A stretch of 64,000 bases of DNA from the NCBI RefSeq assembly GCF_900112175.1, contig NZ_FOYT01000001.1, forward strand, positions 1,550,001-1,614,000, in the 5' to 3' direction. Origin of the DNA: Halogeometricum rufum. Lineage in GTDB: Archaea; Halobacteriota; Halobacteria; Halobacteriales; Haloferacaceae. Below, in pieces: positions 1 through 17,285 of the stretch (its first letter is position 1; each line of letters starts with the position of its first letter). The notes beneath the pieces were generated by a model. It was not told the DNA's origin and ran no database searches. It worked only from the letters and a program-made list of their open reading frames with translations. Position numbers and translations under genes: made by a program.

Positions 1-152
1 AGGTCGCCGTTCTCGGTCGAGACGGTCGCCTCCTCGGCCGCGACGACGCCCGCGCACGCCGACGCGACGAGGAGCATCGCCGCGACGACGCTGAGTCCGA
101 CCGCGACCCGCCGGCCCGCGCCCGTCGCCGTCTGAGTCCGCTCTCGGGTCAT
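1..152 (-). CDS. Secreted or membrane-anchored protein, truncated at the window edge
   Basis: The first 50 codons are visible; the rest lies left of base 1. The protein starts MTRERTQTAT, followed by a twin-Arg-like basic stretch (GAGRR) and a hydrophobic run (VAVGLSVVAAMLLVASACAGVV) ending near AAEE, a clear signal peptide or N-terminal membrane segment. The ATG sits one base after the TAA of the tubulin-like gene at 154 (TAACATG), so the two are almost certainly co-transcribed and translationally linked. Function cannot be judged from this fragment. Its place in the tubulin-like cluster suggests an envelope-side partner. Confidence 0.75.
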   Translation of the reverse strand, partial: MTRERTQTATGAGRRVAVGLSVVAAMLLVASACAGVVAAEEATVSTENGD

Positions 153-153
153 G

Positions 154-1350
154 TTACTCGTTGACCTTCATGTACTGCCGAAGGTTCTCTTCTATCGTGT
201 CGAGTTCCCCCTTCGGGATGCGTTCGTTTCCGAGACGACGCCCTGCAGCGAGGTTCTCCCGGTGGCTCTCGTACTGGTCCCACGCGTGGTCGACGAGCGG
301 GTTCAGGTCGAAGCCGCCGAGCAACAGGAGGACGTCGACGCCGTTCCCCGTCGCCCGTTTCGGGGTGAGCGTCTCCATGCCGACGGTGCCGGTGAGCCCG
401 TGCTTTCGCTTCCAGGAGTCGAACGCCTGCTTCACGTCGTTCGTCGTGAGTTCGTCCCCGACGAGGTGCTCCGGTGCGCGGACGATGGCGTAGGCGGCCC
501 GGCACGTCTCGACGTCCATCGGAACGTACGTCGCCTCGGACGCTCTGTCGAACATGTGTTCGAGCGACCGAATCTGGTAGTTCTCGTCGGTGGTGACGGC
601 GGGCGTGAAGTGGTAGCCGCTGATGTTCGAGGGCTGGGCGACGTAGTCCTCCACGTCGATGACGCGTTGGGTCTCCCGACCGGCGCTGATGAGCAGGTCG
701 ACCGCCTCCACGATTCGCTCGTTCACCAGTTCGTACTCGCCGCTCCCGCCGACGGTGTCGTCGCCCTCGATGTGGGAGTTCGCCGCCAAGAGCACCATGT
801 CCGCGTTCTGTGAGTTGTCCTCCCGACAGAGGAGCCGAGAGAGCCCGCAGACGGCGTTGAACTGCTGCTGTATCGCCTCGTTGTAGTACGGCCAGATACC
901 GAACGTGATGTGGACGCCGTCGCGCATCCACGCTCGCTGGTCGTCGATGTCGGTCGGGTCGCCGAACTGGTTGACGAGGTACGGAATGGACCCGTTCCCC
1001 GTCCCGCCGCCGAGCGTCGTCAGGTAGAGGAAGGCGTCGGCGTTGCCGGCGTCGTTCTCTATCTGGCTGACGATGTCGTCGATGTCCTCCTGAGCGCACT
1101 GCCGCCCGTCGACGAACGAGTTGCCGACGCCGCGCTTGGAGCCGAACATGACCGCCTTCTCCGCCAGCGTCTCGGGCACGTTCGACCCCTCGATGGTGTT
1201 ACGGATGTCCGCGCGGTTCGTGTTCAGCAGTATCATCCGGTCGTCGATGCCGGGGTTCTCGGTCCGCGCGAAGAAGTCGGCCGTCACGCGGCCGCCGCCC
1301 TCGCCGGACGAGACGACGGCCCACCGGGTGAAGGTGTCTGAGCGGGACAT
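154..1350 (-). CDS. Divergent tubulin/FtsZ-like protein (paralogue A)
   Basis: A 398-residue protein with the tubulin-superfamily signature GGGTGNGS at residues 114-121, the phosphate-binding T4 loop, preceded by a hydrophobic strand (AFLYLTT). The N-terminal nucleotide loop is unusual: SSGEGGGRVT at 14-23 replaces the GxGGxGxN form. The region at the usual base-binding Asn is LLAANSHIE, and the later acidic stretch IDVEDYVAQ may take the place of the catalytic T7 loop. It is not canonical FtsZ1, FtsZ2 or CetZ; remembered relatives are annotated as tubulin-like (Pfam Tubulin_2 type), which is an inference. The start ATG overlaps the TAA of the upstream coiled-coil gene (TAATG), indicating coupling. 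It may be polymer-forming, or an inactive partner subunit. Confidence 0.88.
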   Translation of the reverse strand: MSRSDTFTRWAVVSSGEGGGRVTADFFARTENPGIDDRMILLNTNRADIRNTIEGSNVPETLAEKAVMFGSKRGVGNSFVDGRQCAQEDIDDIVSQIENDAGNADAFLYLTTLGGGTGNGSIPYLVNQFGDPTDIDDQRAWMRDGVHITFGIWPYYNEAIQQQFNAVCGLSRLLCREDNSQNADMVLLAANSHIEGDDTVGGSGEYELVNERIVEAVDLLISAGRETQRVIDVEDYVAQPSNISGYHFTPAVTTDENYQIRSLEHMFDRASEATYVPMDVETCRAAYAIVRAPEHLVGDELTTNDVKQAFDSWKRKHGLTGTVGMETLTPKRATGNGVDVLLLLGGFDLNPLVDHAWDQYESHRENLAAGRRLGNERIPKGELDTIEENLRQYMKVNE

Positions 1351-3446
1351 TACTGCTTCGTCACCTCCGATTGTCCGACCGTGAACGAGGCGTCCACGTT
1401 CGTCTGGACGCCGGTCACGAGTTCCTCGAGGAGTTGGTCGGAGGCCGGTACGGTCAGGTATCGTTCACGCATCGTATCGTAGGACATCGAATCGCCGCTT
1501 GAGAGGTTGTGTGTCAGGATGTTCTCCAGCCGGTTCGTCAGTCTGGACTCGTCGAAGACGAGGACGTCACCGCCGTCGAGACACGCCCGCCCGTCGGACT
1601 GTTCGCCCCACATGGCGAGCAGGCACGGGACGAAGTCGTCCCTGATCGGGAACGACATCGACGGGTCGACGTAGCCGTCCTCGTCCAGTTTCCGGTCGAG
1701 TTCGGGGGCCAACTCCGGCAGTTCGTCGTGCAGTGCGGACTGCTGACCGTCGCAGACTCGCTCTGCCAGCGACGCCTCCGAGACGGTCAGCTCTACGGTC
1801 GTATCGTCGTCGAGATAGACGGTCGTCGACTCGGCGACGTAGCCCTCAGCCGGCGTGTCCGCCGTCACGTCGTACTCGCCGTACGGCACGGATTCGAACG
1901 CGACCTGTCCGACGAGGTGCGTCCGCGTGGACGACTCCTCGGCGTAGTTCGCCCCGTCGACTTCGACGCGGAGTTCCCGCTCGTCGCCGCCCGTCTCGAA
2001 CCGGGGCCGCACGTCGAGCGCGTATCGCTCGCCGGCACCGCCCGTCGTCAATCGCTCGTCGGACGGTGCGTAACTCGCGTCGGGGTGCTGTGCGGCGAAC
2101 AGTTCGAAGAACGGCCCGGCGTCTCGAACCGGGACGTCCGCCGGCGTGACCTCGCCGTTCGCCCGAAGCGCGTCGGCTATCTCGTCTTCCACGCCGGGGT
2201 ACGCCTCGACGACGGCCGCGTCCCGTTCGGTGGTGTCGAGTCCGGTCGAGAGGTCACCGACCGTCGAGAGCCACGCTCGGCGGAACGCTTCGAGGTTCGT
2301 CGTCGAGTCGAGTCGGGTCACGTGGTCGGTCCCGGCGGCGTCGGGAATCGTGGTGAACGACGGCGGCGCGTCCGAGAGCGTCTCGACGTCGTCGGCCAGT
2401 TCCGTCTGCATCTCCTCGACCATCGCGGTACAGGTCTCCTGAAGCGTACTCGCGTGCGATTCGAGGACGTCGACGTCGAGGGCGGAATCGACCTGTTCGA
2501 CCTCCCGCCTGACCGACTCCACCTCGTCGAGCAACGACGGCGAGACGTACTGGTCGGCCACGGACGACTCGACCGTGTCCAGGAGGGCCTCGACCGACCG
2601 ACGGTCGGCGTCGAACTCATCGGCGAGTTCCGACTCCACGCGACCGAGTGCGCGGACGGTGGCGTCGACCGCCCGTCCGTAGTCACCGGACTGCGCGGCG
2701 CCCTCGGCCTCGGTGAGGTCGTCGGCGACGACCGTGCGGTCGAGTCCGCGTTCCTCGGCGAGGCGTTCGACCTCGGCTCGCGCCTCGTCGAGGGCCGCCC
2801 GGGCGGTCCGGTCGTACGTCTGCAGTAACTCGTCGTAGCGTTCGGGAGCGTCGGCCTCGGATACCGATTCGAGTTCGCCGGCGTCGGGCGTCCGCACCGA
2901 CGACTCCGATACCAAGTCCCGTTCGACGAGAGGGGTGAGCGCGTCGGCGCTGGCGAGTCGGTCGCGCGCGAACGACTCGAACGACTCGTCTCGAACCGTC
3001 GCCAGCACCTCGACGTCGTCTTCGAGAGCGTTCAGTTCCCGCACGTCGCCGGTGCCACCGGTCGTGTACTGGCCGGCTTCGCGGTCGAACTCGATTCCGT
3101 TCTTCTCCGCGTTCCGCAGCAGTTGCGAGAAGTCGTTCTCCGTCGTTCGGGCCTCCCACTCGGGGTAGCGCTCCCGCAACCGGTCGTACGTCTTCCAGAA
3201 CGACCGAATCGACTCCGCGACGCCGTTGGCCCGCTGCCGGGCGAAGTCCGCCTGGTCGACCTGCGAGGGCCGGACCTGTCGTTGCACGTAGACGGCGACG
3301 GCGGAGATGGCCACCACGGGCGCACCGCCGAAGATGAAGTAGACGCCGAGTTGTGACCCCGTGTAGAGGAAGAGACCCAGCCCCACCACGACCGTTCCGA
3401 CCACGAGTCCACCGATACCGAGCGCTGTCTTGTACTGTGATTTCAT
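1350..3446 (-). CDS. Two-pass membrane protein with long coiled coil and Ig-like domain, tubulin-like cluster
   Basis: A 698-residue protein. Two N-terminal membrane segments (about residues 9-28 and 33-54) are followed by a long acidic, Ala/Glu/Arg-rich helical region (about 60-400) likely to form coiled coils. A beta-rich stretch at about 485-555 (LRVEVDG, VAFESVPYGEYDVTAD, VYLDDDTTVELTV) resembles a carboxypeptidase-regulatory/Ig-like domain, and a helical C-terminal domain follows. A longer reading frame continues upstream, but the start at MKSQYKTALG is chosen because a good ribosome-binding site (GGAGGTG) precedes it and its ATG overlaps the upstream TGA (ATGA). The short loop between the segments puts both termini on the same side, probably the cytoplasm. 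A role as membrane anchor or regulator of the adjacent tubulin-like protein is inferred from context. No family recognised. Confidence 0.85.
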   Translation of the reverse strand: MKSQYKTALGIGGLVVGTVVVGLGLFLYTGSQLGVYFIFGGAPVVAISAVAVYVQRQVRPSQVDQADFARQRANGVAESIRSFWKTYDRLRERYPEWEARTTENDFSQLLRNAEKNGIEFDREAGQYTTGGTGDVRELNALEDDVEVLATVRDESFESFARDRLASADALTPLVERDLVSESSVRTPDAGELESVSEADAPERYDELLQTYDRTARAALDEARAEVERLAEERGLDRTVVADDLTEAEGAAQSGDYGRAVDATVRALGRVESELADEFDADRRSVEALLDTVESSVADQYVSPSLLDEVESVRREVEQVDSALDVDVLESHASTLQETCTAMVEEMQTELADDVETLSDAPPSFTTIPDAAGTDHVTRLDSTTNLEAFRRAWLSTVGDLSTGLDTTERDAAVVEAYPGVEDEIADALRANGEVTPADVPVRDAGPFFELFAAQHPDASYAPSDERLTTGGAGERYALDVRPRFETGGDERELRVEVDGANYAEESSTRTHLVGQVAFESVPYGEYDVTADTPAEGYVAESTTVYLDDDTTVELTVSEASLAERVCDGQQSALHDELPELAPELDRKLDEDGYVDPSMSFPIRDDFVPCLLAMWGEQSDGRACLDGGDVLVFDESRLTNRLENILTHNLSSGDSMSYDTMRERYLTVPASDQLLEELVTGVQTNVDASFTVGQSEVTKQ

Positions 3447-4501
3447 AAGAACACCTCCACGAACGCGTCGAGCCACCCCGACACCGCCAGTCCGACGACG
3501 GTCGCGACGACGAGGGACGCACCGACGCCGACCGGGACCGCCAGTTGTCGGACGCTGTACTTCGATGTCGCGGTCAGCTGTTTGTCGTACGCGACCTTCT
3601 CCAGTTCGCGATTCGCCAGCCTGTAGCCGACGCCGCCGCCGAAGACCAGCCCCCCGACGACACCGCCGAGGAGCGACAGCAGAATCCCCGTCCGCGCACC
3701 GCTCAGTCGACCGCGCAGTTCCCCGCGGTACGCCTCGAGGGCGCTCCGGGAGGCGTCGAGTCGCTCGGACTGCCCCCGATTCACGGCGACGAGGAGTTCG
3801 GCGGCGTCGTCGTCCCCGCCGACCCCAGCTTCGAACACCGCCGCCTCCAGGGCGCGGTGACGCTCCACGAGCGGCGACGACTCGAACGCGTCTAACGCCC
3901 CGGCGTGCACCGGCTCGAACGAGTCGGTTCCGAGCGCCTCGGTCGCCCCCCGAACCGCCGTCGTCGCGTTCGACAACCGATCCGCACTCTCGACGTACCG
4001 CGCTTCGGCGGTGCGATACCGCTCGGCCGCGGACTCCGAGGGGAACGTGAGCGTCCGCGTGTCGTCGCCGACCCGCGTCCGGACGCCGGTACCGTCGGCG
4101 ACGGTGTAGCGCGGACCGTCCGCCTCTTTCTCCGGCACCGCCTTCGCGAGCGACACCGTGCCGTTCGCCTCCGTCACGCGCACCCGGGCGGAGTACCGGT
4201 CCGTCTCGACCGTCTCGAACCCGGACGTCGACTCGTCCAGCGTCCACGCCGTCTCGCGGAGTTCCGCCGCGCCGTCGCTGCAGACGAAGACGGCGAACTC
4301 CGTCCCCACGTACAACTGCTGGGCCGACTGGAGCCTCGTTCCGTCCGAGAAGGCGGCGACGACGCGCGTGTCCTGCACGTCCCGACACGCCGTCTCGGGG
4401 GCGACCGACGCGTCCGCGGCGGCGGCCGTCGCGGTCACCGACCCCACGGCGAGGACGAGGACGACTGCGAGAACCGCGGCCGGCCGAACGTCGACCGACA
4501 T
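3443..4501 (-). CDS. Exported protein with C-terminal membrane segments, tubulin-like cluster
   Basis: A 352-residue protein. Residues 1-29 form a signal peptide (hydrophobic AAVLAVVLVLAVGSVTATAAAA). An extracellular domain with Cys39 and Cys74, which could pair, follows. After a helical stretch (about 150-270) come two membrane segments, about 274-296 (rich in Gly) and 322-346. The predicted topology places the first 270 residues outside the cell and the short loop between segments (ANRELEKVAYDKQLT) inside. It overlaps its neighbours by a few bases on both sides (TGATG upstream, ATGA downstream), the pattern of an obligate operon member. Probably an envelope-facing component of the tubulin-like system. 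No family recognised. Confidence 0.83.
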   Translation of the reverse strand: MSVDVRPAAVLAVVLVLAVGSVTATAAAADASVAPETACRDVQDTRVVAAFSDGTRLQSAQQLYVGTEFAVFVCSDGAAELRETAWTLDESTSGFETVETDRYSARVRVTEANGTVSLAKAVPEKEADGPRYTVADGTGVRTRVGDDTRTLTFPSESAAERYRTAEARYVESADRLSNATTAVRGATEALGTDSFEPVHAGALDAFESSPLVERHRALEAAVFEAGVGGDDDAAELLVAVNRGQSERLDASRSALEAYRGELRGRLSGARTGILLSLLGGVVGGLVFGGGVGYRLANRELEKVAYDKQLTATSKYSVRQLAVPVGVGASLVVATVVGLAVSGWLDAFVEVFL

Positions 4502-4764
4502 CAGCCTCTCACCCGCCGGACGTACGCCCCGGCCGCGCCGGTGCAGAGACCGAGGCCGAGGCCGACTCCGAGGCCCGTGACGACGGGTCGAAGCGGCTTC
4601 GATTCGAGTCCCCGCGCCGCGACGACGGTCTGTTGGAGTCCCCGGACGCTCTCGGCGAGTTCGGCCATCGACGCCGGGTCGCCCGCCGCGGTCGAAGGCC
4701 CCGAGAGGGCGACGACGAGGGCGGTCCCGCCGAGCAACGCGCCCAGAACAGCGAGGCGTCTCAC
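4501..4764 (-). CDS. Small membrane protein (87 aa), tubulin-like cluster
   Basis: A GTG start at 4764 overlaps the TGA of the upstream tubulin-like gene (GTGA), with GGAGG about nine bases before it. The 87-residue product has an N-terminal hydrophobic segment (LAVLGALLGGTALVVALSG), a short helical linker (MAELAESVRGLQQTVVAARG) and a second Gly-rich segment near the C-terminus (VVTGLGVGLGLGLCTGAAGA), ending in RRVRG. Its stop overlaps the ATG of the next gene (TGATG). The frame stays open far upstream, but that part lies over the tubulin-like gene and is a shadow. Likely an accessory membrane subunit; no family recognised. Confidence 0.72.
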   Translation of the reverse strand: MRRLAVLGALLGGTALVVALSGPSTAAGDPASMAELAESVRGLQQTVVAARGLESKPLRPVVTGLGVGLGLGLCTGAAGAYVRRVRG

Positions 4765-5951
4765 GCGGCGACCTCCTCTCGGGGCGTCTCGTCGTGTTCC
4801 GCCGCGTGTTCCTCGATAGCGTCCAGTCGTTCGAGGTCGGAGCGGTCGTACGTTAGGAGCGTCGTGAATGACGCGAGATTCCGTTCGGTGAACGTCATCC
4901 CGTAGTTGACCTCCCCGCAGAACGACTTGAGTTGGCGGTCGACCGCCGAGACGTTGATTCGGTAGTCGTCGCCGGAGACGTACGACGCCGGAGCGCGAAC
5001 CGAGCCCAACGCCTTCTGCGCGCGAGTGGGGTCCGCGTCCGCGAGCGTCTGTTTGCTGACCGACTGGTGGAGCAGGTTCACGCCGTCGACGGCTCGCTTG
5101 CCGACGAACGGGAGCAGATAGCCGGCGAGCGACCGGGTCATCGTCACGGCGCGGCCGATGGTCGCGTACCCCGTCCGCTCGCCGTCGCTTCCGAGGCGGA
5201 GCGTCGTCACGATGTCTTTCATGTCGACCACCTGCGCGTCGACGTCGTCGTACGTGCTGGGGTCGATCCGTTCCAGCACCGGCCCGGAGACGAGATCGAC
5301 GATGGCGGACGCGACGTACTCGTTGTACTCCGAGAACCGACTCTCGGCGGCGTCCTGATACGCCAGTCGCTCGTTGTCGACGAGGACGATACCCTCGACG
5401 TGGTCCTCCAGACGGTCGAGTCCGTACAGCGCGTTCCACGCCTGCCGCGGCGCCGACACCTGTTCGTCCCCCTCAGAGACCGGGCCGGTCGTGTTCGGCA
5501 AGACGCCGACGGCGATGACGTCCACGTCGGACTCGGTGGACTCGCGGATGGACTCGACGAGGTGCGGGGCGATTCCGCACCCCGTCCCGCCCCCGAGTCC
5601 GAGGAAGACGAACACGTACGAGAACGGTTCGTCCTGCGCTTGCAGGACGGTCCGTATCTCGCGCGTCACCTCGTCGCTCCGCTCTTCCATCACCGAGTCG
5701 GCGTCTTTCGGGTCGCGCCCGAACCCGCCCGTGACGCGCGATTCGAACCCGTCTGTCTCCCCACGAACGAGTCCGTCGGTCTCTGAGACGCCGAACCACG
5801 CCGAACGGTCCACGTTCGAGAGGTTCTGGAGGTCTCGGATCGTCGAATTGAACACTAAGGGCGTCGCCAGTCGAGAGATTCGTCGGTGACCGAACACGTC
5901 GTCGACGATTGCACTCCCCGCCTGTCCCGCCCCCACAAAGAGGTATGGCAT
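4761..5951 (-). CDS. Tubulin/FtsZ-like protein (paralogue B, CetZ-like N-terminus)
   Basis: A 396-residue protein with a well-kept GTP-binding set. GAGQAG at residues 7-12 followed by IVDDVF resembles the CetZ loop; GGGTGCG lies at 120-126; VDNERL at 191-196 is the base-contact region; DDVDAQVVDMKDI at 235-247 fits the T7 loop with its catalytic acidic residues. It lacks the overall spacing of the CetZ proteins I remember and sits in a cluster with two other divergent paralogues. Of the three it looks the most likely to hydrolyse GTP and polymerise. A TATA box at 5981-5990 would start the transcript within about 10 bases of the ATG, so this gene probably heads the second half of the cluster. 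Its stop overlaps the next start (GTGA). Confidence 0.9.
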   Translation of the reverse strand: MPYLFVGAGQAGSAIVDDVFGHRRISRLATPLVFNSTIRDLQNLSNVDRSAWFGVSETDGLVRGETDGFESRVTGGFGRDPKDADSVMEERSDEVTREIRTVLQAQDEPFSYVFVFLGLGGGTGCGIAPHLVESIRESTESDVDVIAVGVLPNTTGPVSEGDEQVSAPRQAWNALYGLDRLEDHVEGIVLVDNERLAYQDAAESRFSEYNEYVASAIVDLVSGPVLERIDPSTYDDVDAQVVDMKDIVTTLRLGSDGERTGYATIGRAVTMTRSLAGYLLPFVGKRAVDGVNLLHQSVSKQTLADADPTRAQKALGSVRAPASYVSGDDYRINVSAVDRQLKSFCGEVNYGMTFTERNLASFTTLLTYDRSDLERLDAIEEHAAEHDETPREEVAA

Positions 5952-5980
5952 AAGTCAACTACCGCGAACTACAGGGAATC

Positions 5981-5990
5981 TTATATAAAT
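5981..5990 (-). promoter_or_regulatory. TATA box for the downstream half of the tubulin-like cluster
   Basis: On the minus strand the sequence reads ATTTATATAA, a strong archaeal TATA element in an otherwise GC-rich region, centred about 34 bases before the ATG at 5951. The transcript would be leaderless or have a very short leader, as is common in haloarchaea. Confidence 0.7.
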
Positions 5991-6039
5991 AGATGTCGTA
6001 GTCTGTAGTATTCGCACCCGCTGACATGCAATTCAGTTG

Positions 6040-7461
6040 TCAGCCTCGCAGTCGGCGAAGCATCACGCTGTATTCGTTCTGTTCGTAGAGTTGCTCGACG
6101 TAGTCGAGCACCGTCGCACCCGCATCCGCGATTTCGCGCGCCCGAACGCTCTCACCGGCGTTTAGCGCCGTTTCAGCTTCCTGATGGAGCGAGTCCACGA
6201 GCGAGAGAAAGTGCAGCGGGATGCTGTGGTTGTAGTCGCTCGTCCCCGATATCCACCGGTCGCTCACCGACTGTCGGCGTTCGACGAGCGATTCGACGCG
6301 TTCGGCGGCGTCGCCCGTCCCCGCCGATGCCGACGCCGAAGACAGTGCTGGCAACAGGTGTCGGTCGTAGAACCGCAGTTCGTTCTGTACGGCGTACTGC
6401 GTCACCTGATTCGTCTCGGGTGCGCCGTCGAGCAGTCGGCGGAGTTCCGCGACGCGGTCCGTCAGCTTCGAGGCCACTTGACCGTCGTGTGCCGACGCCG
6501 CCGTCTCGACGCCGGCAGCGAGTTCATCGACGGCGTCGGGGTCTACCGACCCGACGAGGCCGCGGACCGTCTCGGCCTCGTCGATGGCCTCGACCGCTCG
6601 TTCGAGGACCGGTTCGGGGTCGTCGTCGTCGCCGGCGAACGCGTCGAGGAGCGTCCGCGCGAGTTCGCTCTGGGGTCGGCGGCGGCGGCGCACCGCCGTC
6701 GCGGCGTCCGCCGCGCCGTCGTCGGTCGGCGTCCCCCCGTCGGCGATGTCCGCGAGCGCCTGTTCGGGGTCGACTTCGGGGTCCGTCTCGCCCGTCGCGT
6801 CGGCGATGGCACGCTCCAGTTCCCGGCACCGTTCCTCAGCCTCGCGGGCCCGCCGGTCGGCCTCCACTACCCGTTCGCAGAGCCGGTCGACGCCCTCGAC
6901 GAGCGCCGCTTCGGGGGCGTCGCTCAGTCGCTTGCGCGCCATCTCGACGTCCGCCCCCGCCCCCTCGCCGACGTAGTCGAGTGCCGTTCCGACGGCGTGT
7001 GCCGCCTCGGCGTCGCGGAGGACCGTTTCGAGCGACTGTGCGGCGGCGTCGGCGTCGGCGCCCGAGGCGGCGAACGTATCGAGGAGACGCTGCGCGTCGG
7101 GGGAGGCCAGCGATCCCGCGTCGACGCGGGAGACGACGTCCGCGGACGTCGGAGCCGGCGCGCCGGCCGTCCGACCGGACCGGGTCGCGTCCTCGAACGA
7201 CAGCGTTCCGCGGTCCACCGCCTCCGCCAGCGCTTCGACCTTTTGGACCGGCCCATCGTCGGGACGGACGGTACCGGGTAACCGGTCGAGACTCGCGTCT
7301 GCGACGAGTCGGTCCGTCGCCTCCGAGAGGTGGTCGAGTTCCCTGAGCACGGCGTCCTCGCTCGCGGGGGCGTCCAGTCTGTCGGCGACGGCCGCTATCG
7401 ACGCGTCGTCGTCGCTGCCCCCGCCGAAGATGCCGAACACCAGCGGTAACGGCCCCGCCAT
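6040..7461 (-). CDS. Soluble helical/coiled-coil protein, tubulin-like cluster
   Basis: A 473-residue, Ala/Asp/Glu-rich and almost entirely helical protein with no membrane segment. Residues about 190-222 look like a coiled coil, residues 225-257 are a low-complexity acidic linker, and a five-Arg run lies at 258-262. The C-terminal third (from about 340) is more ordered, with aromatic positions (ELRFYDRHLLPAL, SIPLHFLSLVDSLHQEAE, DYVEQLYEQNEYSVMLRRL). The ATG follows the stop of the zinc-finger tubulin-like gene by one base (TAACATG). Probably a cytoplasmic adaptor or regulator of the tubulin-like proteins; this is inferred from position only. Confidence 0.83.
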   Translation of the reverse strand: MAGPLPLVFGIFGGGSDDDASIAAVADRLDAPASEDAVLRELDHLSEATDRLVADASLDRLPGTVRPDDGPVQKVEALAEAVDRGTLSFEDATRSGRTAGAPAPTSADVVSRVDAGSLASPDAQRLLDTFAASGADADAAAQSLETVLRDAEAAHAVGTALDYVGEGAGADVEMARKRLSDAPEAALVEGVDRLCERVVEADRRAREAEERCRELERAIADATGETDPEVDPEQALADIADGGTPTDDGAADAATAVRRRRRPQSELARTLLDAFAGDDDDPEPVLERAVEAIDEAETVRGLVGSVDPDAVDELAAGVETAASAHDGQVASKLTDRVAELRRLLDGAPETNQVTQYAVQNELRFYDRHLLPALSSASASAGTGDAAERVESLVERRQSVSDRWISGTSDYNHSIPLHFLSLVDSLHQEAETALNAGESVRAREIADAGATVLDYVEQLYEQNEYSVMLRRLRG

Positions 7462-7462
7462 G

Positions 7463-9079
7463 TTACGCCATGTTCTCCCGGCCGAGGCAGTCGAACAGCG
7501 ATTCGACGTGAGGCCACACCTCGCGGAGCGACTCGCCTTGTCTGCTGCCGCCTTCTTTGATGTCGCGGGCGTGTTCGTACATCGATTCGAGCGCCGGCAT
7601 CTCGGGGTTCCAGAGCGCGCCCCACAGGTAGACGTCGTCGAGGTACGGGACGGAGAGCTGATTGATCTGTACGTCCACCGTCTCGACGCTGTCGGTGTTC
7701 GCGCCGTCGAGGAACTCCTCGCGGTTGAGTATCTCCTGCATCGTTCCGTCGGTGACGTGCCGGCGGATGCGTTCCATCTTCGAGTCCGGCCCGTAGACGA
7801 GGAACTGCCCGCCCCACGCCGTCGACGGGTCGAAGTCCGCGAGTTTGTTCTGGAGGAGCGTGTTTCGCACGAGGAGGTCCAGCGACGACTCCGTCATCTC
7901 GCTGCCGCGGAGGCGGCCGAGGACCGGCGCGAGGACGACGGCCGGCGTCTCGTCCAGCGGGATGCTCGCCGGGTACTTGTCCTGAGCCGGACGGAAACTG
8001 TCGGACACGTCGAACACGTCGCCCTTCGCGCGGATGTCGTGTTCCTGACTCAGCAACTGCGGCGTGGAGGTTAGCGTGAACGCCTCGAGGTAGGCGACGA
8101 GCGGTCGGTTGAGGCTCGCGTACTGCGGCGGGTTGTACTTCGTCAGGTCGGCTATCTCGGGGTGGATGTCGCCCTCGGCCCGTTCCAGTCGGTCGTTGGT
8201 GAACGGTATCACCGCGTCGACCGCTTGCGAGAGGCGTGCGAGGCCGACGACGCCGTTCGTCTTCGGCCGACCGCCCTGTCGGGAGAGTTCGCTGCCCTGC
8301 GAGGGGAGGACGACCGAACTCAGGACGGGCTTTCCGACGATGGTGTCGTCGGGCAGGACGTGCTCCCGGAGTTTCTCCGCGAGGACGGGCGTCGACCCGC
8401 ACCCGGTTCCCTTCGTCACGCTGTGGACGAACATCACGGCCTGGGAGTCGCGAATCTCCTGCGGGCGGAGGTCCCAGCGGTCGCGGAACGCGTTCTTTTC
8501 GCCCTCGAAGTCGTACTCGACGACTTTCGCACCCGTGTCCCACCGGTACCCCATCCCGGTTCCGTCGTGGCCCCCCATTCCGATGAGCGTGTTCGACAGG
8601 AGGTCGTTCCGGACGTACTGTTTCACCTCGCTCGCGTAGTACGTCTGTTCGAGTTCGCTGATGTTGGTGTTCAACATCCCGTAGCCGGCGAGGCCGCCCT
8701 GCCAGATGTACGCCCGGTCGGCGTCGCGTTCGTCCAGCGTCCGTCGGCGGAGCAGTATCGCGTCCACGATGTTGTTCCCGGCGCCCCCGACACCGATGAC
8801 GTACCACTTCTTCCCGTAGGTCGTGTCCGCGAGGTCCGGCGCGGTCCGTTCGTCGGCCGTCTCGTCCGCTTCTTCGTCCGTCTGTGCCTCGTCGTCGTCA
8901 CCGCCCCCGACGTCGGCGTCGACGACGCCGTCGTCGTCGAACAGTCGGTCGTGCGCCTCGGCGTACACCGCTTTGACGGACATCGGGTCGTCCCGGTGTG
9001 CGTTCGCCAGGTGCTCGTCGAGCGTGTTTGTCTCCCACTCTGCGGCCGTCCGGTAGCATATCTTGCATCGTTCAGTCAT
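7463..9079 (-). CDS. Tubulin/FtsZ-like protein with N-terminal zinc finger (paralogue C)
   Basis: A 538-residue protein. Cys5, Cys8, His23 and His28 form a C2H2-type zinc finger (CKIC ... HLANAH), followed by an acidic linker (about 45-85). The tubulin-like domain starts at KKWYVIGVGGAGNN (GVGGAGNN at 96-103, the classical FtsZ-type loop). The T4 signature is TKGTGCGS at 222-229, with Lys at one of the usual Gly positions. FTNDRL at 293-298 resembles the FtsZ NDxL base-contact motif. A region FDVSDSFRPAQ may correspond to T7. A zinc finger fused to a tubulin fold is unusual and suggests binding to nucleic acid or another protein. The gene follows the membrane protein at 9120 by 40 bases and is coupled to the helical gene after it. 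Confidence 0.9.
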   Translation of the reverse strand: MTERCKICYRTAAEWETNTLDEHLANAHRDDPMSVKAVYAEAHDRLFDDDGVVDADVGGGDDDEAQTDEEADETADERTAPDLADTTYGKKWYVIGVGGAGNNIVDAILLRRRTLDERDADRAYIWQGGLAGYGMLNTNISELEQTYYASEVKQYVRNDLLSNTLIGMGGHDGTGMGYRWDTGAKVVEYDFEGEKNAFRDRWDLRPQEIRDSQAVMFVHSVTKGTGCGSTPVLAEKLREHVLPDDTIVGKPVLSSVVLPSQGSELSRQGGRPKTNGVVGLARLSQAVDAVIPFTNDRLERAEGDIHPEIADLTKYNPPQYASLNRPLVAYLEAFTLTSTPQLLSQEHDIRAKGDVFDVSDSFRPAQDKYPASIPLDETPAVVLAPVLGRLRGSEMTESSLDLLVRNTLLQNKLADFDPSTAWGGQFLVYGPDSKMERIRRHVTDGTMQEILNREEFLDGANTDSVETVDVQINQLSVPYLDDVYLWGALWNPEMPALESMYEHARDIKEGGSRQGESLREVWPHVESLFDCLGRENMA

Positions 9080-9119
9080 CGTTGAGTAGTGTGTCTGCGT
9101 GTGCGTCGTCTGCGCTCTC

Positions 9120-11018
9120 CTACGCGTACCGCTCCCGATACCGCTCTTCGAGCCCGTCTATCGCCTCGCGGACCGACAGCCCCGACTGCGGTTCGAATTC
9201 CAAGAACGCGGGCGGCGTCAGCGACTGGAGTTCGACGTGGGAGACGAGGTCCGACTGATGTTCGGCGTAGTCCCGCAGCGTCTTCAGCACCTCCGGACGC
9301 GCCACCGACGGCGGGAGGTCGTCGGTCTGGAACTGGAGGTGGTCGTCGCCGCTCGCCCGCGCGCAGCGGTCGAGTTCCCGGAACGCGTACAGCACCTCGT
9401 CGACCACCTGTTCCGGCCGTGCCTCGGTCGCCGTCTCGGCGAACTCACCGTCGCTCTCTGCGTTCGGTGACGCCGTTTCCGTCGGCGCGACGGCGTCGTC
9501 GGTCTCAACCTCGTCGGCGTCCGGGCCGTCCACGCCGTCGTCGTCCCCGCTCTCGCCGACGACGACGGCCGACTCGTCCGCGGTCACGTCCAGCGGTGCG
9601 CCGCGTTCGCGCCTGAACGCCTCAGAAATCTCGGCGACGAACGCGGTGGGGACGCTGTCGGGGAGCGACACGCGGCCGCCGGCCGACGTCGCCGAGAGCC
9701 CCCGGAGCAGTTCGCTCGCGGTCGTCAGGCGCTCTCCGTCCGCGGCGGCGGCCGACGCGAGACGCTCGGCGTCGTCGAACCGACACGCGTACAGCGACTG
9801 CCGGGCCTCGTCGGATCGCTCTCGGACGTCGGGCACGCCGGCGAGCGCATCGCTCCGACCGTCGAGGAGGAGTTCGGTCGCCCGGTCGCGGACGCGGCCA
9901 TCGAGACGGTCGAGTTGCCCCTCCAGCGTCTCCGTGGCCGTCTCGACGGCCCGGAGGTGCGTCAGCACCGCCTCCTCGCGCTCGGAGACGTGTTCCCGTA
10001 TCGAGTCGAGGCGGGCGTCGACCTCTCGAGTCGCCGCGGCGACGTCTTCGAGTCTGTCGCCGTCGCCGAGACGGCCGAGCAGCACCTCGGACGCTTCGCC
10101 AATGTGGACGGGGTGTGCCGTCCCGGACAGCGACAGTTCGCGGAACCGCGTCGGGAGGTTGACGACGGTGTAGGACCCGCCGTCGGCTGCCCGAACGTCG
10201 ACGTCACCGTAGGTCGTCCGTATCGCGGATTCGAGCCGTCGTCTCGCCGCCTCGTCCGCCGCCGTGACCGCCGACTCGGGGTCGAGTTCCGACAGTCGCT
10301 GCCGGACGCTCGACAGGTCCCGCTTCGCCGCCGCGGCCGACTCGGCGGATTGGACGCCGTGGAGGGCCGAGCGAACGTCGTCCCACCGAGCGTGGAACTC
10401 GTCGCGACGTTCGGTCGCCGCTTCCGCGGCCGACGGCGCGACCGAACGGATGGCGTCCGGGTCGCCGATGCGCTCTTCGAACAGGGTCTCGAACTGGTCG
10501 CGAACCCGCTCCAGTTCGGCTTCGCTCTCGCCCGCCTCCGCGCCGGCGGACTCCACGACGTCGAGTTCCCAGTCGCGGGCGACCGCCGCCGCGACGACCA
10601 GTCCCGACGTGACCACCGGTATCGAGAAGAACCCGACCAACTGGCCGGCCGGGAGGCCCGCGCCGAACAGTTCCGAGTAGACGCCGAAGAAGAGGACGAC
10701 GAACAACAGCGAGACGAACCCGGCGGCTGCGAAGGCGGCGTCCCGGTGGGGTCGGACCGCGATGGCGACTCCTTCGCCGACCCACCCGACGGTGATGAGT
10801 GCGAACAGTCCGACGACGAGCGCCGGACTGGCCTTGAACACCACCGCGGCCTCGTACAGCACCGCTACGTCGTACAACGGTCCGATGACGGCGACGAGAC
10901 CGGTCGACTGGGCGTTCTCTCCGAGAAGCGCGAGCAGCGATTGTCCGAGTATCATCACCAGCGGTAGTCCCGCAAGCCCCCACGAGGCGAGCGCACGTCC
11001 GGGTCGACGCGAGTTCAT
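9120..11018 (-). CDS. Polytopic membrane protein with long cytoplasmic coiled coil, tubulin-like cluster
   Basis: A 632-residue protein. About five membrane segments occupy residues 12-150 (for example 12-33, 66-88, 95-117, 124-147). The rest is a long hydrophilic region with coiled-coil character (about 155-480), an acidic low-complexity linker (about 510-555) and a compact C-terminal domain (VVDEVLYAFRELDRC to the end). The open frame extends to 11279, but the upstream part is poor coding sequence; the ATG at 11018 (MNSRRPG) lies about 45 bases after a TATA-like element. A GTG one codon earlier is an alternative. As first gene of the minus-strand run it probably tethers the system to the membrane. 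No family recognised. Confidence 0.82.
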   Translation of the reverse strand: MNSRRPGRALASWGLAGLPLVMILGQSLLALLGENAQSTGLVAVIGPLYDVAVLYEAAVVFKASPALVVGLFALITVGWVGEGVAIAVRPHRDAAFAAAGFVSLLFVVLFFGVYSELFGAGLPAGQLVGFFSIPVVTSGLVVAAAVARDWELDVVESAGAEAGESEAELERVRDQFETLFEERIGDPDAIRSVAPSAAEAATERRDEFHARWDDVRSALHGVQSAESAAAAKRDLSSVRQRLSELDPESAVTAADEAARRRLESAIRTTYGDVDVRAADGGSYTVVNLPTRFRELSLSGTAHPVHIGEASEVLLGRLGDGDRLEDVAAATREVDARLDSIREHVSEREEAVLTHLRAVETATETLEGQLDRLDGRVRDRATELLLDGRSDALAGVPDVRERSDEARQSLYACRFDDAERLASAAAADGERLTTASELLRGLSATSAGGRVSLPDSVPTAFVAEISEAFRRERGAPLDVTADESAVVVGESGDDDGVDGPDADEVETDDAVAPTETASPNAESDGEFAETATEARPEQVVDEVLYAFRELDRCARASGDDHLQFQTDDLPPSVARPEVLKTLRDYAEHQSDLVSHVELQSLTPPAFLEFEPQSGLSVREAIDGLEERYRERYA

Positions 11019-11311: not shown

Positions 11312-11800
11312 ATGGACGACAAGCGGGAACTGCTCGACCTGCTGCTCAGCAACGCTCGCGAGAGCCCGGAGGACATCGCTCGACAGACGGGTCTCGACGC
11401 GGCGGCGGTCGAAGCACTCATCGACGAGTTGGAGGACGACGGCGTCGTTCGGGGCTATCAGGCCGTCGTCGACTGGGACCGCGTCGAGGAGGAACACGTC
11501 GAAGCGATGGTGGAGTTGAACGTCGAACTCGACCGCGAGACGGGCTACGAGGAGATTTCGCGCCGCATCGCCAAGTTCTCCGAGGTGACGTCGCTCCGAC
11601 TGGTCTCCGGCGACTACGACTTCGCGCTCGTCGTCGAGGGCGACTCGATGCACGACGTCTCGAACTTCATCTCCGAACGGGTCGCCCCCATCCCGGAGGT
11701 GACGCAGACGGTGACGCACTTCGTCATGGAGACGTACAAGGACCGCGGCATCGAGATGGGCGACGGCGACGAGGACGACCGGCTCACGTTCTCGCCATGA
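11312..11800 (+). CDS. Lrp/AsnC family transcriptional regulator
   Basis: A 162-residue protein with an N-terminal winged helix-turn-helix (ELLDLLLSNARESPEDIARQTGLDAAAVEALIDELEDDGVV) and an AsnC-type effector domain (MVELNVELD ... VSGDYDFALVVEGDSMHDVSNFISERVA). Such regulators sense amino acids and form oligomers. The stop overlaps the ATG of the aminotransferase (ATGA), so the pair is an operon and the regulator probably controls amino-acid metabolism linked to that enzyme. The ligand cannot be read from the sequence. Confidence 0.92.
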   Translation: MDDKRELLDLLLSNARESPEDIARQTGLDAAAVEALIDELEDDGVVRGYQAVVDWDRVEEEHVEAMVELNVELDRETGYEEISRRIAKFSEVTSLRLVSGDYDFALVVEGDSMHDVSNFISERVAPIPEVTQTVTHFVMETYKDRGIEMGDGDEDDRLTFSP

Positions 11801-12948
11801 GCGACTACCTCTCCGCGCTCGCGCGCGAGACGCCACCGTCCGGTATCCGCCGCTTCTTCGAACTCGCCGAGCAGATGGACGACGTCATCTCCCTCGGCGT
11901 CGGCGAACCCGACTTCTCCGCGCCGTGGGCCGCCCGGACCGCCGCCATCGACTCGCTCGAACGCGGGCGGACCTCCTACACCTCCAACCGCGGGATGCGC
12001 GAACTCCGCGAGGCTATCGCGGGCCGGGTCGAACGCTACGGACAGGAGTACGACCCCGAGGACGAGATACTCGTCACCGCGGGCGCGAGCGAGGCCGTCG
12101 ACCTGGCGATGCGCGCCCTCGTGGACCCCGGCGACACCGTCGCCGTCCCCGAACCGTCGTACATCTCCTACGAACCCACCGTCTCGTTCGCCGGGGGCGA
12201 ACCGCTGTCGGTCCCCACGCGCGCCGAGGACGACTTCGCGCTCCGGCCCGAAGCGCTCGAACGGGCCGGCGCGGCGGAGGCGGACGTCCTCGTCCTCTGC
12301 TACCCGAACAACCCGACGGGCGCGGTGATGTCGCGCGAGGAACTCGCCGACGTCGCCGCCTTCGCGCGCGAACACGACCTGTTCGTCCTCTCCGACGAGA
12401 TTTACGCCGCGCTCCGGTACGAGGACGACCACGTCTCCATCGCCACGCTTCCGGGGATGCGCGAGCGGTCGGTCGTGTTCAACGGGTTCTCGAAGGCCTA
12501 CGCGATGACCGGATTTCGCCTCGGCTACGCCCTCGGTCCCGCCGCCGTCGTCGACGCGATGAACCGCATCCACCAGTACACGATGCTCTCCGCGCCGACG
12601 ACGGCGCAGTACGCCGCGCTGGAGGCCATCCGGTCGTGCGACGACGCGGTCGAGGAGATGCGCCGCGCGTACGACCGACGGCGGCGGTTCGTCATCTCCC
12701 GGTTCAACGAGATGGGGATGGACTGCTTCGAGGCGAAAGGGGCGTTCTACGTCTTCCCGAAGTGCCCGCCCGGGTGGGAAGACGACGAGGCGTTCGCCGA
12801 AGCCCTCCTGCAGACCGAGAGGGTCGCTGTCGTCCCGGGTCGCGTGTTCGGCGACAGCGGGGAGGGGCACCTCCGCGTCTCGTACGCGACGGGGATGAGA
12901 GAACTCAAAGAGGCGCTGAATCGCATCGAATCGTTCGTGCGGGAGTAG
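11797..12948 (+). CDS. Class I/II PLP-dependent aminotransferase (aspartate aminotransferase-like)
   Basis: A 383-residue fold-type I aminotransferase. The PLP Lys lies in FSKAYAMTGFRLGY, the pocket Asp/Tyr in LSDEIYAALRY, the Asn in CYPNNPTG, and the phosphate-binding turn in AGASEAVDLAM. The C-terminal Arg that binds the substrate carboxylate is in HLRVSYATG. It transfers amino groups between amino acids and 2-oxo acids in the cytoplasm. The substrate is not fixed; this subgroup is often annotated as aspartate or aromatic aminotransferase. It is co-transcribed with the Lrp regulator directly upstream. Confidence 0.93.
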   Translation: MSDYLSALARETPPSGIRRFFELAEQMDDVISLGVGEPDFSAPWAARTAAIDSLERGRTSYTSNRGMRELREAIAGRVERYGQEYDPEDEILVTAGASEAVDLAMRALVDPGDTVAVPEPSYISYEPTVSFAGGEPLSVPTRAEDDFALRPEALERAGAAEADVLVLCYPNNPTGAVMSREELADVAAFAREHDLFVLSDEIYAALRYEDDHVSIATLPGMRERSVVFNGFSKAYAMTGFRLGYALGPAAVVDAMNRIHQYTMLSAPTTAQYAALEAIRSCDDAVEEMRRAYDRRRRFVISRFNEMGMDCFEAKGAFYVFPKCPPGWEDDEAFAEALLQTERVAVVPGRVFGDSGEGHLRVSYATGMRELKEALNRIESFVRE

Positions 12949-13055
12949 ACCGTCGGGCCGCCCCGTCTTCGCGCGGGCGTGACGACGGTGGGGACCCCTG
13001 CGGAGACAGCCATTCGTGGGCGGACTCGAGCCCACTTCTGAGTATCGACTTTGAT

Positions 13056-13103
13056 AGCTGGCGTCGCAGCGAGAGCGAGCGTTCCGCGCCGTATTCGCCA
13101 GCT
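13056..13103. repeat. Inverted repeat AGCTGGCG / CGCCAGCT
   Basis: A perfect 8-base inverted pair (13056-13063 and 13096-13103) separated by 32 bases, in the gap between the aminotransferase and the DUF7504-type gene. It could be a terminator stem, an RNA element or the end of an old mobile element. A 21-codon minus-strand frame (13123-13188) lies just to the right. Confidence 0.4.
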
Positions 13104-13234
13104 GCAACCGCAGAACTGTGCTTCAGGGGCTCTTCAGCATCTCAGTCGCGGGAACGGCTTCGAGGACGTCTCCGATTTTCAGACTCATCAAATACGCAAA
13201 GTATTATTTGCACCGGTTCCGTGAGTAGAGACGA

Positions 13235-14039: not shown

Positions 14040-16190
14040 ATGATGGAACGGTTCGAGAATCCTGAGAGTTCGTCGGCGTTCGAGAGCGCCGAGACGTATC
14101 TGGAACTCTCGCTCGACAGCGCTCCGGGCGGTGACGGCGTCGTCGTCTCCGACCCCATCGAACGGCACACGTTCGAACTCTCGACGCCGTCGGTGGTCGA
14201 ACCGACGCCGGCCGACCCGAGCGCGTTCTGGTTCCCCGCCGACGCGGCGGTCAGATTCCGAACCGACCGGCTCGACCTCCAGAACGTCGTCTCCGTCTGC
14301 GTCCGCGACGACGACGGGCAGATGCTCGGCCAGACCGAGCACTTCGCCTCGGAGACGTTCCCCGACGGGACGTACAGTCTGGAACTGTTCGCGCCGGTGA
14401 AGACGTACGTCCGCGTGGACGCGCCGGTGTCGATAGCGTCGGACGCGACGAAGACGAGCATCTCGTTCGGCGGCGAGACGGAGGTGCTCGTCGGCGCCCG
14501 GTCGCACCACAAGCGGCCGGCGGCGACGATTACGACGCCGGACGACCCCGAGTCGATGATGCGAGCGGTGTCGCTGCTCGGGTCGGCGCTGAAGACCACC
14601 TCGCCCGAGCGGTCGTATCCGACGCTCCGCGGCCACCCCCCGCTGGTCGAACGCGGGAACGAGTTCAGAGCGCCGGCGGACCTGACGCCGCCGGAGACGG
14701 GCGTCACGCTCGAACTGCCGGCGACGCACCACCACGTCTACGCGGCCGCGCCGCTCTCGTACTACCTCGGCGCGACCGTCGTCCCGGGCGAGACGCCGCG
14801 ACTCCGCACGGACCGCGGGTTCACGTACGACCTCGACGGTCCCGTGGGGTACGAACGGACGGTCGCGCGAGTGCTGAAACAGACGTTCTTCCTCGACTGC
14901 CTCACGCGGACCGAGGGCTACTATCAGGTGGACCTCCACGAGCGACGGGCGGTCGAGTCGGAACTCGGCCTCGACTTCGCCGACCTGTACGACCGGTCGC
15001 TGGCCGAACAGATCGAGGCGTATCTGGCGATTCCGTGGGAGACCGTCTCGCCCCACGTCCCCGAGTGGAAGCTCACGACGCACGTGACGCCGACGGCGGA
15101 GAACGTCGAACTCCTCCCGTTCGTCGCGAACGACCTCGCCATCGTCCGGACGCCGGAGGCGAACGCCGGTGCGAGTTCGACGACGCAGGCGGCGGCCGTC
15201 GACTCGTTCCTCCGGTCGTCGCCGAGCGTCACCGACGGCGGGTTCACGCGCAGTGCGGCCCAGTCCGCCTCGTTGCCGGAGCGGAGTTACGTCCAGCCCG
15301 GCGACACGGAGTCCCTCGAACAGGCGTGGCTCGGACAGGGAACGCCCATCGGCGCGAGCAAGGCCTCCCTGCAGGCCTACCGGAACCGGCTGTACCGGTC
15401 GCCGACGGAGGGCGACATCGCCATCACCGTCGTCTGCAACGACCCGCGGATGGCCGACGAACGCGACGACGTGGAGGCGGTGTACGGCTCCCGCGAGGAA
15501 CTCCCGTTCGACGTGCAGGTCCAGTACGAACTCACGCGGGCGGAACTCCGCGAGACGCTCGCCGCCGAGACGGACTTCTTCCACTACATCGGCCACATCG
15601 ACACCGACGGCTTCCAGTGCGTCGACGGGACGCTCGACGCGTCCACGCTGAGCGACGTCGGGATGGACGCGTTCCTGCTCAACGCCTGTCGCTCCTACGA
15701 ACAGGGGATGAGCCTCATCGACGCCGGCGCCATCGCGGGCATCGTGACGCTCGACGACGTGGTGAACAGCAGCGCCGTCGAGGTGGGGTCGATGCTCGCG
15801 CGACTGCTCAACAGCGGCTTTCCGATTCGGAGCGCGCTGGAACTCGTCCGGGACGAGAACGTTGTCGGCGACAACTACATCGTCCTCGGCGACGGCGGGT
15901 TAGCCGTCGCACAGAGCGACGGGGTGTTCCCGAACATGTGTGTCGTCGACGCGGTAGACGACAGATTCGAGGTCGAATACAACACGTATCCCGGGACACA
16001 CACCGGGATGGGAGCACTCGTGAAACCGATGTTACCCGGTGTCGAGCAGCACTATCTCGGTTCGGGCGCAATCGACCAGTTCTCACTATCGTCTGAGGAA
16101 CTGCGTGATTTCCTGTCGCTAGAAGAGATTCCGCTGCTCGTCGATGGCCGCCTTCACTGGAGCGGTAGCATCGATCTGGACTCGTTGTGA
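14040..16190 (+). CDS. CHAT-domain protein (caspase-like peptidase fold)
   Basis: A 716-residue protein. The C-terminal half carries the CHAT catalytic pattern: FFHYIGHID with His at 515 and 519, and LLNACRSYEQG with Cys550. The His of the GH-type motif (His519) and Cys550 would form the dyad. Segments IAITVVCNDPRM, AFLLNACRS and ISGIVT-like strands fit the caspase-like sheet. The N-terminal half (1-400) is beta-rich and unlike a known domain. CHAT proteins are separase/caspase relatives that cleave proteins in regulated systems. The gene ends 3 bases before the convergent small membrane gene. Base composition is lower in GC over the last 300 bases. The first two codons are both ATG, so the start may be 14043. 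Confidence 0.82.
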   Translation: MMERFENPESSSAFESAETYLELSLDSAPGGDGVVVSDPIERHTFELSTPSVVEPTPADPSAFWFPADAAVRFRTDRLDLQNVVSVCVRDDDGQMLGQTEHFASETFPDGTYSLELFAPVKTYVRVDAPVSIASDATKTSISFGGETEVLVGARSHHKRPAATITTPDDPESMMRAVSLLGSALKTTSPERSYPTLRGHPPLVERGNEFRAPADLTPPETGVTLELPATHHHVYAAAPLSYYLGATVVPGETPRLRTDRGFTYDLDGPVGYERTVARVLKQTFFLDCLTRTEGYYQVDLHERRAVESELGLDFADLYDRSLAEQIEAYLAIPWETVSPHVPEWKLTTHVTPTAENVELLPFVANDLAIVRTPEANAGASSTTQAAAVDSFLRSSPSVTDGGFTRSAAQSASLPERSYVQPGDTESLEQAWLGQGTPIGASKASLQAYRNRLYRSPTEGDIAITVVCNDPRMADERDDVEAVYGSREELPFDVQVQYELTRAELRETLAAETDFFHYIGHIDTDGFQCVDGTLDASTLSDVGMDAFLLNACRSYEQGMSLIDAGAIAGIVTLDDVVNSSAVEVGSMLARLLNSGFPIRSALELVRDENVVGDNYIVLGDGGLAVAQSDGVFPNMCVVDAVDDRFEVEYNTYPGTHTGMGALVKPMLPGVEQHYLGSGAIDQFSLSSEELRDFLSLEEIPLLVDGRLHWSGSIDLDSL

Positions 16191-16193
16191 GTG

Positions 16194-16337
16194 TTAGGGA
16201 CCGTAGATTCCAGTGTTGTTCCCCGCGGCGACCGACCCGGCCTGCGAGAGAAGCAGCAGCATGGTGAACAGGACGCCCATCATGCGGGGGTGGTCGGCGA
16301 GGTACTGTGCGACTGCGTTCGTGTCGTTTTCGGACAT
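16194..16337 (-). CDS. 47-aa single-pass membrane peptide (DUF7503-like)
   Basis: A short frame, read by hand on the minus strand: a polar start (MSENDTNAVAQYLADHPRMM), a hydrophobic segment (GVLFTMLLLLSQAGSVAAG) and the tail NNTGIYGP. The ATG at 16337 and TAA at 16194 give 47 residues. It resembles a family of tiny haloarchaeal proteins I remember as DUF7503, often found beside CHAT/DUF7504 genes. Its convergent placement 3 bases from the CHAT gene supports a real gene. An AT-rich stretch around 16365-16375 can serve as promoter. Possible membrane partner, toxin-like peptide or sensor; function unknown. Confidence 0.75.
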   Translation of the reverse strand: MSENDTNAVAQYLADHPRMMGVLFTMLLLLSQAGSVAAGNNTGIYGP

Positions 16338-17144: not shown

Positions 17145-17177
17145 TTGTATTGTTGTGGTGTTGCGGGAACACGCACG

Positions 17178-17255: not shown

Positions 17256-17285
17256 CTTCTCTGCCAAAGGGTGGTGACTCAGGGG

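Follow-up and report, generated by a model that had tools for sequence, protein, structure and literature searches.

Three genes for divergent tubulins stand among genes for membrane and surface proteins in the genome of Halogeometricum rufum: do they belong to one system, and if so to which? The question arises at the left end of the window analysed here, a stretch of 64,000 nucleotides (G000:C1:1550001-1614000) within the 4.19-Mb genome of this haloarchaeon. An original prediction, made from the DNA letters, had described there a cluster of nine minus-strand genes, including the three tubulins (TubA, TubB and TubC below). Those genes and their coordinates are as described and the cluster is real, but the window edge cuts it, and it continues to the left of base 1 with g7, g6 and a convergent five-gene AAA operon. 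The complete cluster comprises 16 genes over ~24.8 kb, from window position -13815 to 11018 (negative coordinates lie left of base 1; a coordinate in locus L003 equals the window coordinate plus 15000), arranged as two convergent operons. Operon 1 consists of 11 minus-strand genes (g6-g16) coding for TubA, TubB, TubC and membrane and surface proteins. Operon 2, entirely left of base 1, consists of five plus-strand genes (g1-g2-g3-g4-g5), whose products are three small soluble proteins (g1-g3), the Vps4/Cdc48-type AAA ATPase g4 and the beta-propeller/Ig protein g5. Both operons almost certainly form a single two-operon system.

Conservation and layout of the two operons

In a sample of 292 Halobacteria genomes, 28 have a TubC homolog that matches most of the protein's length, 26 of these homologs being close orthologs, and TubA homologs are likewise present in 28. 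Within up to 40 kb around each TubC the 16 genes recur with order and orientation kept in nearly all cases, the relatives carrying the cluster including Halorussus, Halobaculum, Halopenitus, Halorubrum, Natrinema, Haloarchaeobius, Natronomonas, Halomicroarcula, Halovenus and Haloquadratum. The order is conserved across haloarchaea of several families, far beyond chance; the recurrence in other haloarchaea that the original prediction had raised is thus found even in distant ones, the tubulin genes not being unrelated and scattered in relatives. Searched independently, g1 and g4 of operon 2 each occur in exactly the 26 of 292 genomes with a close TubC; a Fisher test of this co-occurrence, uncorrected for common descent, gives p ~1e-37. 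Halopenitus also has both operons, although here g1-g5 form an intact operon elsewhere in the genome, at a distance of ~0.26 Mb in G017. The identical 26-genome pattern, kept also where the operons lie apart, therefore marks the two operons as one genetic unit. The detached Halopenitus operon adjoins two tandem CetZ-like genes (L181 5162-7489 in G017; L182 3362-5755 in G061). Beyond Halobacteria, no TubC was found in a 393-genome sample of the phylum, of which the share lying outside Halobacteria is not stated.

The genes are as follows, with lengths in amino acids (aa) and transmembrane (TM) segments as predicted.

g1, -13815 to -12691, plus strand: 374 aa.
g2, -12675 to -11635, plus strand: 346 aa with a coiled coil.
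g3, -11627 to -10986, plus strand: 213 aa.
g4, -10989 to -9286, plus strand: Vps4/Cdc48-type AAA ATPase.
g5, -9280 to -6497, plus strand: PQQ/WD40-type propeller plus Ig/CARDB.
g6, -6438 to -3709, minus strand: exported Ig-like protein with a C-terminal TM segment.
g7, -3716 to -2667, minus strand: exported helical protein with a C-terminal TM segment.
g8, -2664 to 152, minus strand: 938 aa, with signal peptide, extracellular part, TM segment at 422-440, cytoplasmic CarboxypepD_reg/prealbumin domains and a helical C-terminus.
TubA (g9), 154 to 1350, minus strand: 398 aa, divergent tubulin-superfamily GTPase; T4 GGGTGNGS, T7 D232xxD235.
g10, 1350 to 3446, minus strand: 698 aa, with two N-terminal TM helices, a long coiled coil, a prealbumin/CnaB-like domain at 457-555 and a mixed C-terminal domain.
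g11, 3443 to 4501, minus strand: 352 aa, exported, with a signal peptide and two C-terminal TM segments.
g12, 4501 to 4764, minus strand: small membrane protein of 87 aa, its position kept in several orthologous clusters.
TubB (g13), 4761 to 5951, minus strand: 396 aa, divergent tubulin-superfamily GTPase; T4 GGGTGCGI, T7 D243xxD246.
g14, 6040 to 7461, minus strand: 473 aa, soluble and helical, its place between TubC and TubB conserved.
TubC (g15), 7463 to 9079, minus strand: 538 aa, with an N-terminal CxxC...H...H finger followed by a divergent tubulin-superfamily GTPase; T4 TKGTGCGS, T7 D357xxD360.
g16, 9120 to 11018, minus strand: 632 aa, with up to five TM segments, a cytoplasmic coiled coil and a C-terminal domain; first gene of operon 1.

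The membrane and surface proteins agree largely with what had been read from the window alone. The five-segment membrane protein is a 5-TM coiled-coil protein (g16), the two-pass coiled-coil/Ig-like protein is a 2-TM coiled-coil/prealbumin protein (g10), and the exported protein with C-terminal anchors (g11) and the 87-aa membrane protein (g12) are as described. What had been taken for a secreted fragment at bases 1-152 is instead the cytoplasmic C-terminus of the complete 938-aa g8. The protein set as a whole spans the membrane, as expected of a system with both cytoplasmic and outside-facing parts. Two TM segments are present in 26/26 orthologs of g10, whose AlphaFold2 (AF2) model is good (predicted local distance difference test score, pLDDT, 86.7) and gave no whole-fold match at E<=0.001. 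Three hydrophobic segments are present in 21/22 orthologs of g11. A match of g8 to PF13620 (39.2 bits, cut-off 32.3) exceeds the threshold, an EzrA-like match of g16 is weak and not significant, and g14 has no family match in the profile scan.

Three tubulin families

All three window tubulins exceed the Pfam gathering score for PF00091 (33 bits), TubA with 37 bits (5.6e-9), TubB with 55 bits (1.7e-14) and TubC with 52.6 bits (9e-14), and the genome encodes seven PF00091 proteins in total, the other four being FtsZ1, FtsZ2 and two CetZs. The NCBIfam ftsZ equivalog model gives the three only 17-43 bits against a cut-off of 295, and TubB alone comes near Tubulin_2 (PF13809), which it misses narrowly with 26.2 bits against a cut-off of 27. 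The maximum-likelihood tree gives each of TubA, TubB and TubC a clade of its own (support 100/100), separate from FtsZ1/2 and CetZ; the stems measure 1.7-2.3 changes per site, and such long branches make the order in which the three families split uncertain. Judged by sequence, they are three separate tubulin families, neither FtsZ, CetZ nor FtsZl1, and the tree bears out the earlier placement of these GTPases outside FtsZ1/FtsZ2 and CetZ. When profiles were compared with solved structures, CetZ ranked first for TubA (4b46, Haloferax) and TubB (3zid, Methanosaeta). The TubC N-terminus carries a CxxC/HxxxxH finger. Top Foldseek matches of the TubC AF2 model are all FtsZ/CetZ/tubulin (E 2e-11); the model is poor (pLDDT 57.6), and these matches therefore support superfamily membership only.

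The T4 glycine loop is kept in all three proteins, with the first two glycines replaced in TubC, and in a MAFFT alignment the invariant DxxD of each family falls in the column of the FtsZ T7 motif NLDFADV. Both motifs are present in 26/26 orthologs for each of TubA, TubB and TubC. In FtsZ and tubulin, T7 is the source of catalytic acids for the adjacent subunit. As these acids serve the neighbouring subunit and T7 is kept, polymer-coupled GTP hydrolysis, predicted here from motifs, is plausible for all three.

The AAA operon and its published counterpart

The ATPase of operon 2 (g4) has one classical AAA domain (PF00004, 111 bits), no MIT domain match in the profile scan, and invariant Walker A, Walker B, sensor and arginine-finger residues. 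NCBIfam models for CdvC (3.5e-36) and CDC48 (1.4e-34) match it about equally, and its profile scores 115.5 bits with Vps4B compared to 111.8 with the isolated p97 D2 domain. The arginine-finger motif is TRRF, and the genome's own Cdc48/PAN proteins carry an R(P/S/G)GR-type motif instead; RRF without PGR is typical of Vps4, katanin and spastin. Orthologs of g5 exceed the cut-offs for PQQ_2 and CARDB. A likeness of g16 to g4 (hhalign E 4e-20) was rejected as an artefact, with no motifs and 13% identity, and all hhalign E-values are therefore treated as weak. A match of g1 to glucose-6-phosphate dehydrogenase among the solved-structure profiles was likewise judged spurious.

Operon 2 matches the published Halo_adaptin clade of systems like the endosomal sorting complex required for transport (ESCRT), exemplified by Haloquadratum walsbyi with the Vps4-like protein WP_014555335.1 (Makarova et al. 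2024, mBio, PMC10936438). In that account the Vps4-like ATPase has no MIT domain, has a VAT-like N-domain and follows a gene of ESCRT-III/PspA type. Its neighbours code for a pair of winged-helix proteins (arCOG11740, arCOG11741), for adaptin-like proteins that contain PQQ/WD40 propellers, for further Ig proteins, and for a membrane protein and a single CetZ-like protein; a role in vesicle formation or sorting is suggested. Haloquadratum J07HQW1 has a single g4-type ATPase (E 1e-233, next best 1e-30), which lies inside a full 16-gene cluster in order. With this one ATPase in the cluster and H. walsbyi as the published example, operon 2 is therefore taken as Halo_adaptin, an identity we consider very probable, WP_014555335.1 itself lying outside the comparison. 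In the J07HQW1 locus (L211 7354-11344) g5 is split over two open reading frames (ORFs), which may correspond to the 'two adaptin-like proteins' published for H. walsbyi.

Proposed role, rival readings and known systems

The cluster may be one envelope-associated machine, a three-tubulin form of the Halo_adaptin ESCRT-like system, for which we infer a function in membrane remodelling or sorting; we regard this reading as evenly poised between acceptance and doubt. The exported Ig-like proteins (g6, g7, g8, g11) would sense or bind an outside partner, and g8, g10, g12 and g16 would carry the signal across the membrane and tether tubulin polymers to its inner face. GTP-dependent polymers might then form under the membrane, from TubA/TubB and from TubC with g16/g14, and the propeller/Ig protein g5 together with g1-g3 could make up a coat or sorting layer. 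The g4 AAA ring would dismantle an ESCRT-III-like polymer or the tubulin polymers and so reset the machine, whose task would be to deform membrane, to form vesicles or tubules or to sort proteins, rather than to carry out routine cell division. A bolder version, which we hold to be unlikely, is a hybrid ESCRT-tubulin machine with three distinct, perhaps mixed, sub-membrane polymers and a Vps4/katanin-like AAA ring pulling on tubulins, the archaeal equivalent of microtubule severing by AAA proteins, linked here to membrane budding; its tubulin modules would be exchangeable with FtsZl1 systems.

Several points weigh against the envelope machine and its Halo_adaptin identity. The case is built from genes (presence, order, co-inheritance, motifs and topology), from which function is inferred; polymerisation of the tubulins is likewise deduced from motifs, and the TubC model has low confidence. 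The Halo_adaptin identity was set by the published description and the J07HQW1 locus, not by WP_014555335.1 itself. A VAT-like N-domain of g4 finds weak alignment with Cdc48 N-domains (hhalign, with unreliable E-values), and g3, the gene upstream of g4, has no ESCRT-III/PspA profile match. At the positions of the published winged-helix genes, g1 and g2, g1 gives weak wH-type matches at best. A comparison of g1, g2 and g3 profiles with solved structures brought no meaningful match, leaving unconfirmed both the ESCRT-III likeness of g2/g3 and winged helices in g1/g2. Finally, genomes G042 and G048 carry a TubA/TubB core without g1-g4, and the AAA operon is therefore not obligatory for the tubulins.

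In G042 and G048 this core is TubB-g12-g11-g10-TubA-g8-g7-g6 with g5, with neither the TubC module (g16-TubC-g14) nor g1-g4, and it adjoins an FtsZl1 (Tubulin_2) module with multi-TM proteins. The TubC module stands in G081 with a g5-like protein, a 6-TM protein and FtsZl1, and in G031 with a g8-like kinase, a g5-like protein and another divergent tubulin-like protein. FtsZl1 is present in 52/292 genomes, mostly other than those with the 16-gene form. In these combinations each of the three components, tubulin modules, FtsZl1 module and ESCRT-like operon, behaves as a part that can be exchanged, and a view of the cluster as unrelated to the systems of Makarova and Koonin (2010) is not supported. 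Three further loci were noted. In G031 (L088 region, joined-locus 11774-13147) a 458-aa protein with GGSGNG, a very divergent tubulin-like candidate, lies beside a 156-aa membrane protein; by the TubC variant on G031 C9 (L088/L089, joined-locus 14055-21404) are a MoxR-type AAA protein, a vWA-type protein carrying HELGH and a HEAT-like protein of ~1500 aa, partly repeated ~15 kb on. An FtsZl1 locus in G290 (C1:280001-300000, L150/L151) has several kinases, PP2C-like and vWA-like proteins and two tandem CetZ-like tubulins.

These exchanges bear on the strongest rival, that the cluster is an archaeal FtsZl1-type remodelling system of the 2010 kind in which FtsZl1 was swapped for other tubulins and the ESCRT-like half is optional. 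The core beside FtsZl1 in G042/G048, lacking TubC and g1-g4, and the TubC module beside FtsZl1 in G081 speak for it, but operon 2 is present in 26/26 genomes with a close TubC, and the 16-gene form has no above-cut-off match to Tubulin_2. Nor did Pfam find a vWA, P-loop GTPase, kinase or OmpA partner among the genes scanned in that form, in agreement with the original prediction for vWA, GTPase and OmpA. We therefore consider this rival improbable, if the best of the alternatives.

The spread of the cluster bears on the others. A complete copy lies on plasmid PHS2 of Halobacterium salinarum R1 (NC_010369.1, 165445-189846, OE_RS12075 to OE_RS12000), in whose annotation TubC and TubB are called 'cell division protein FtsZ'; complete copies are also found on Halobaculum plasmids, and g10 relatives on Halobaculum and Natrinema plasmids. 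On the Halobaculum halobium plasmid (L192 10308-14672) TubC and TubB are each two overlapping ORFs, with frameshifts by decay or sequencing error. Several copies lie on 3-4 Mb contigs, evidently chromosomes, at differing sites, and flanking genes are common to close relatives only. In a congener without the cluster (G158) the ogt-type and Lrp/aminotransferase flanks are 1.75 kb apart, with an MFS-type gene between them, compared to 25.2 kb here. The flanks are ordinary (cupin-like and ogt-type genes on the left, L003 1-1150; an Lrp/AsnC regulator and an aminotransferase on the right, window 11312-12948) and all are common to the cluster-free congener. Insertion linked to a tRNA was rejected, with no tRNA at the site and no integrase seen, as was a virus origin, since the patterns used brought up no relatives in phage records, PHROGs or IMG/VR. 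Between gain and loss of the cluster, the patchy spread and the plasmid copies point rather to transfer.

Patchy spread, varied chromosomal sites, location on plasmids and the sharp difference between congeners with and without the cluster would also suit a biological-conflict or defence system, in which surface or cytoplasmic sensors trigger tubulin-like polymers that stop an invader or kill the cell, and some bacterial conflict systems contain tubulins (GAP1-N2, Kaur et al. 2020, PMC7159879). Yet no effector domain and no GAP1, GTPase or vWA was found, PADLOC matches are confined to generic AAA domains, and the cluster is very large, conserved in order and made up mostly of membrane and surface genes, which makes such a system quite unlikely. 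A CetZ-like role of the three tubulins, as additional proteins of cell division or cell shape, draws on the solved-structure matches of TubA and TubB (4b46 and 3zid); against this, they fall outside the CetZ and FtsZ clades, the genome retains FtsZ1, FtsZ2 and two CetZs, and the cluster is dispensable, being absent from the congener, so that we rate this a poor candidate. A plasmid or chromosome segregation system of TubZ/RepX type would fit the plasmid-borne copies but neither the evidently chromosomal ones nor the seven or eight membrane or exported proteins, and is very unlikely. Chance neighbourhood of unrelated genes has practically no standing, ruled out by the conserved order in several families and the identical 26/292 patterns.

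The envelope machine, if correct, would matter beyond this locus. In archaea and eukaryotes, membranes are shaped above all by two kinds of polymer, ESCRT and tubulin-family filaments, and little is known of what either does in archaea apart from division; in the present cluster a single transferable unit joins an ESCRT-type ATPase operon and three tubulin families, with no exception in the sample where a close TubC is present. A complete plasmid copy resides in the tractable Halobacterium salinarum R1, and both the remodelling role and the tubulin-ESCRT link are therefore directly testable. Module exchange with FtsZl1 loci provides a wider frame for the 2010 FtsZl1 family. The ESCRT-like half with a CetZ-like protein (2024) and the Halo.Tub genes (2023) are already published; new are the presence of three tubulin families, the extent of the unit to 16 genes, its coherence as one genetic unit and its exchange of modules with FtsZl1 systems. 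No description of the TubC module, the strict co-occurrence, the connection with FtsZl1 modules, the PHS2 copy in H. salinarum R1 or a system with three distinct tubulin families turned up in a search confined to open-access literature.

Among known systems, the GAP1-N2 conflict systems resemble the cluster in their mix of membrane proteins, Ig/FNIII-type proteins and one or two tubulins, and differ in their GAP1, TRAFAC GTPase, vWA and effector components, none of which was found among the genes scanned here. Quasi-tandem 'Halo.Tub' genes were noticed by Santana-Molina et al. (2023, PMC9871819), who described no system; they probably include some proteins of the window type, the two being set side by side by description and not by accession. 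Tandem CetZ-like pairs such as that of G290 could instead be the published Halo.Tub. CetZ (Duggin 2015; Brown and Duggin 2023, PMC9856176) shares the fold and the T4 and DxxD/E T7 motifs and gives the best solved-structure matches of TubA and TubB, whereas TubA, TubB and TubC lie in separate well-supported clades. The FtsZl1/Tubulin_2 systems (Makarova and Koonin 2010, PMC2875224) likewise place divergent tubulins in operons with membrane and coiled-coil proteins, and core modules are common to the FtsZl1 loci of G042, G048 and G081; unlike FtsZl1, the window tubulins have a short chain (396-538 aa), a match to PF00091 and a T7 motif, in a cluster without a vWA, GTPase, kinase or OmpA partner. 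The closest likeness of operon 2 is to Halo_adaptin, with a Vps4-like ATPase without a recognised MIT domain, small genes ahead of it in the published order and a PQQ-propeller plus Ig 'adaptin-like' protein (g5 here); that paper reports one CetZ-like protein, whereas the present cluster has three tubulin families within 16 genes.

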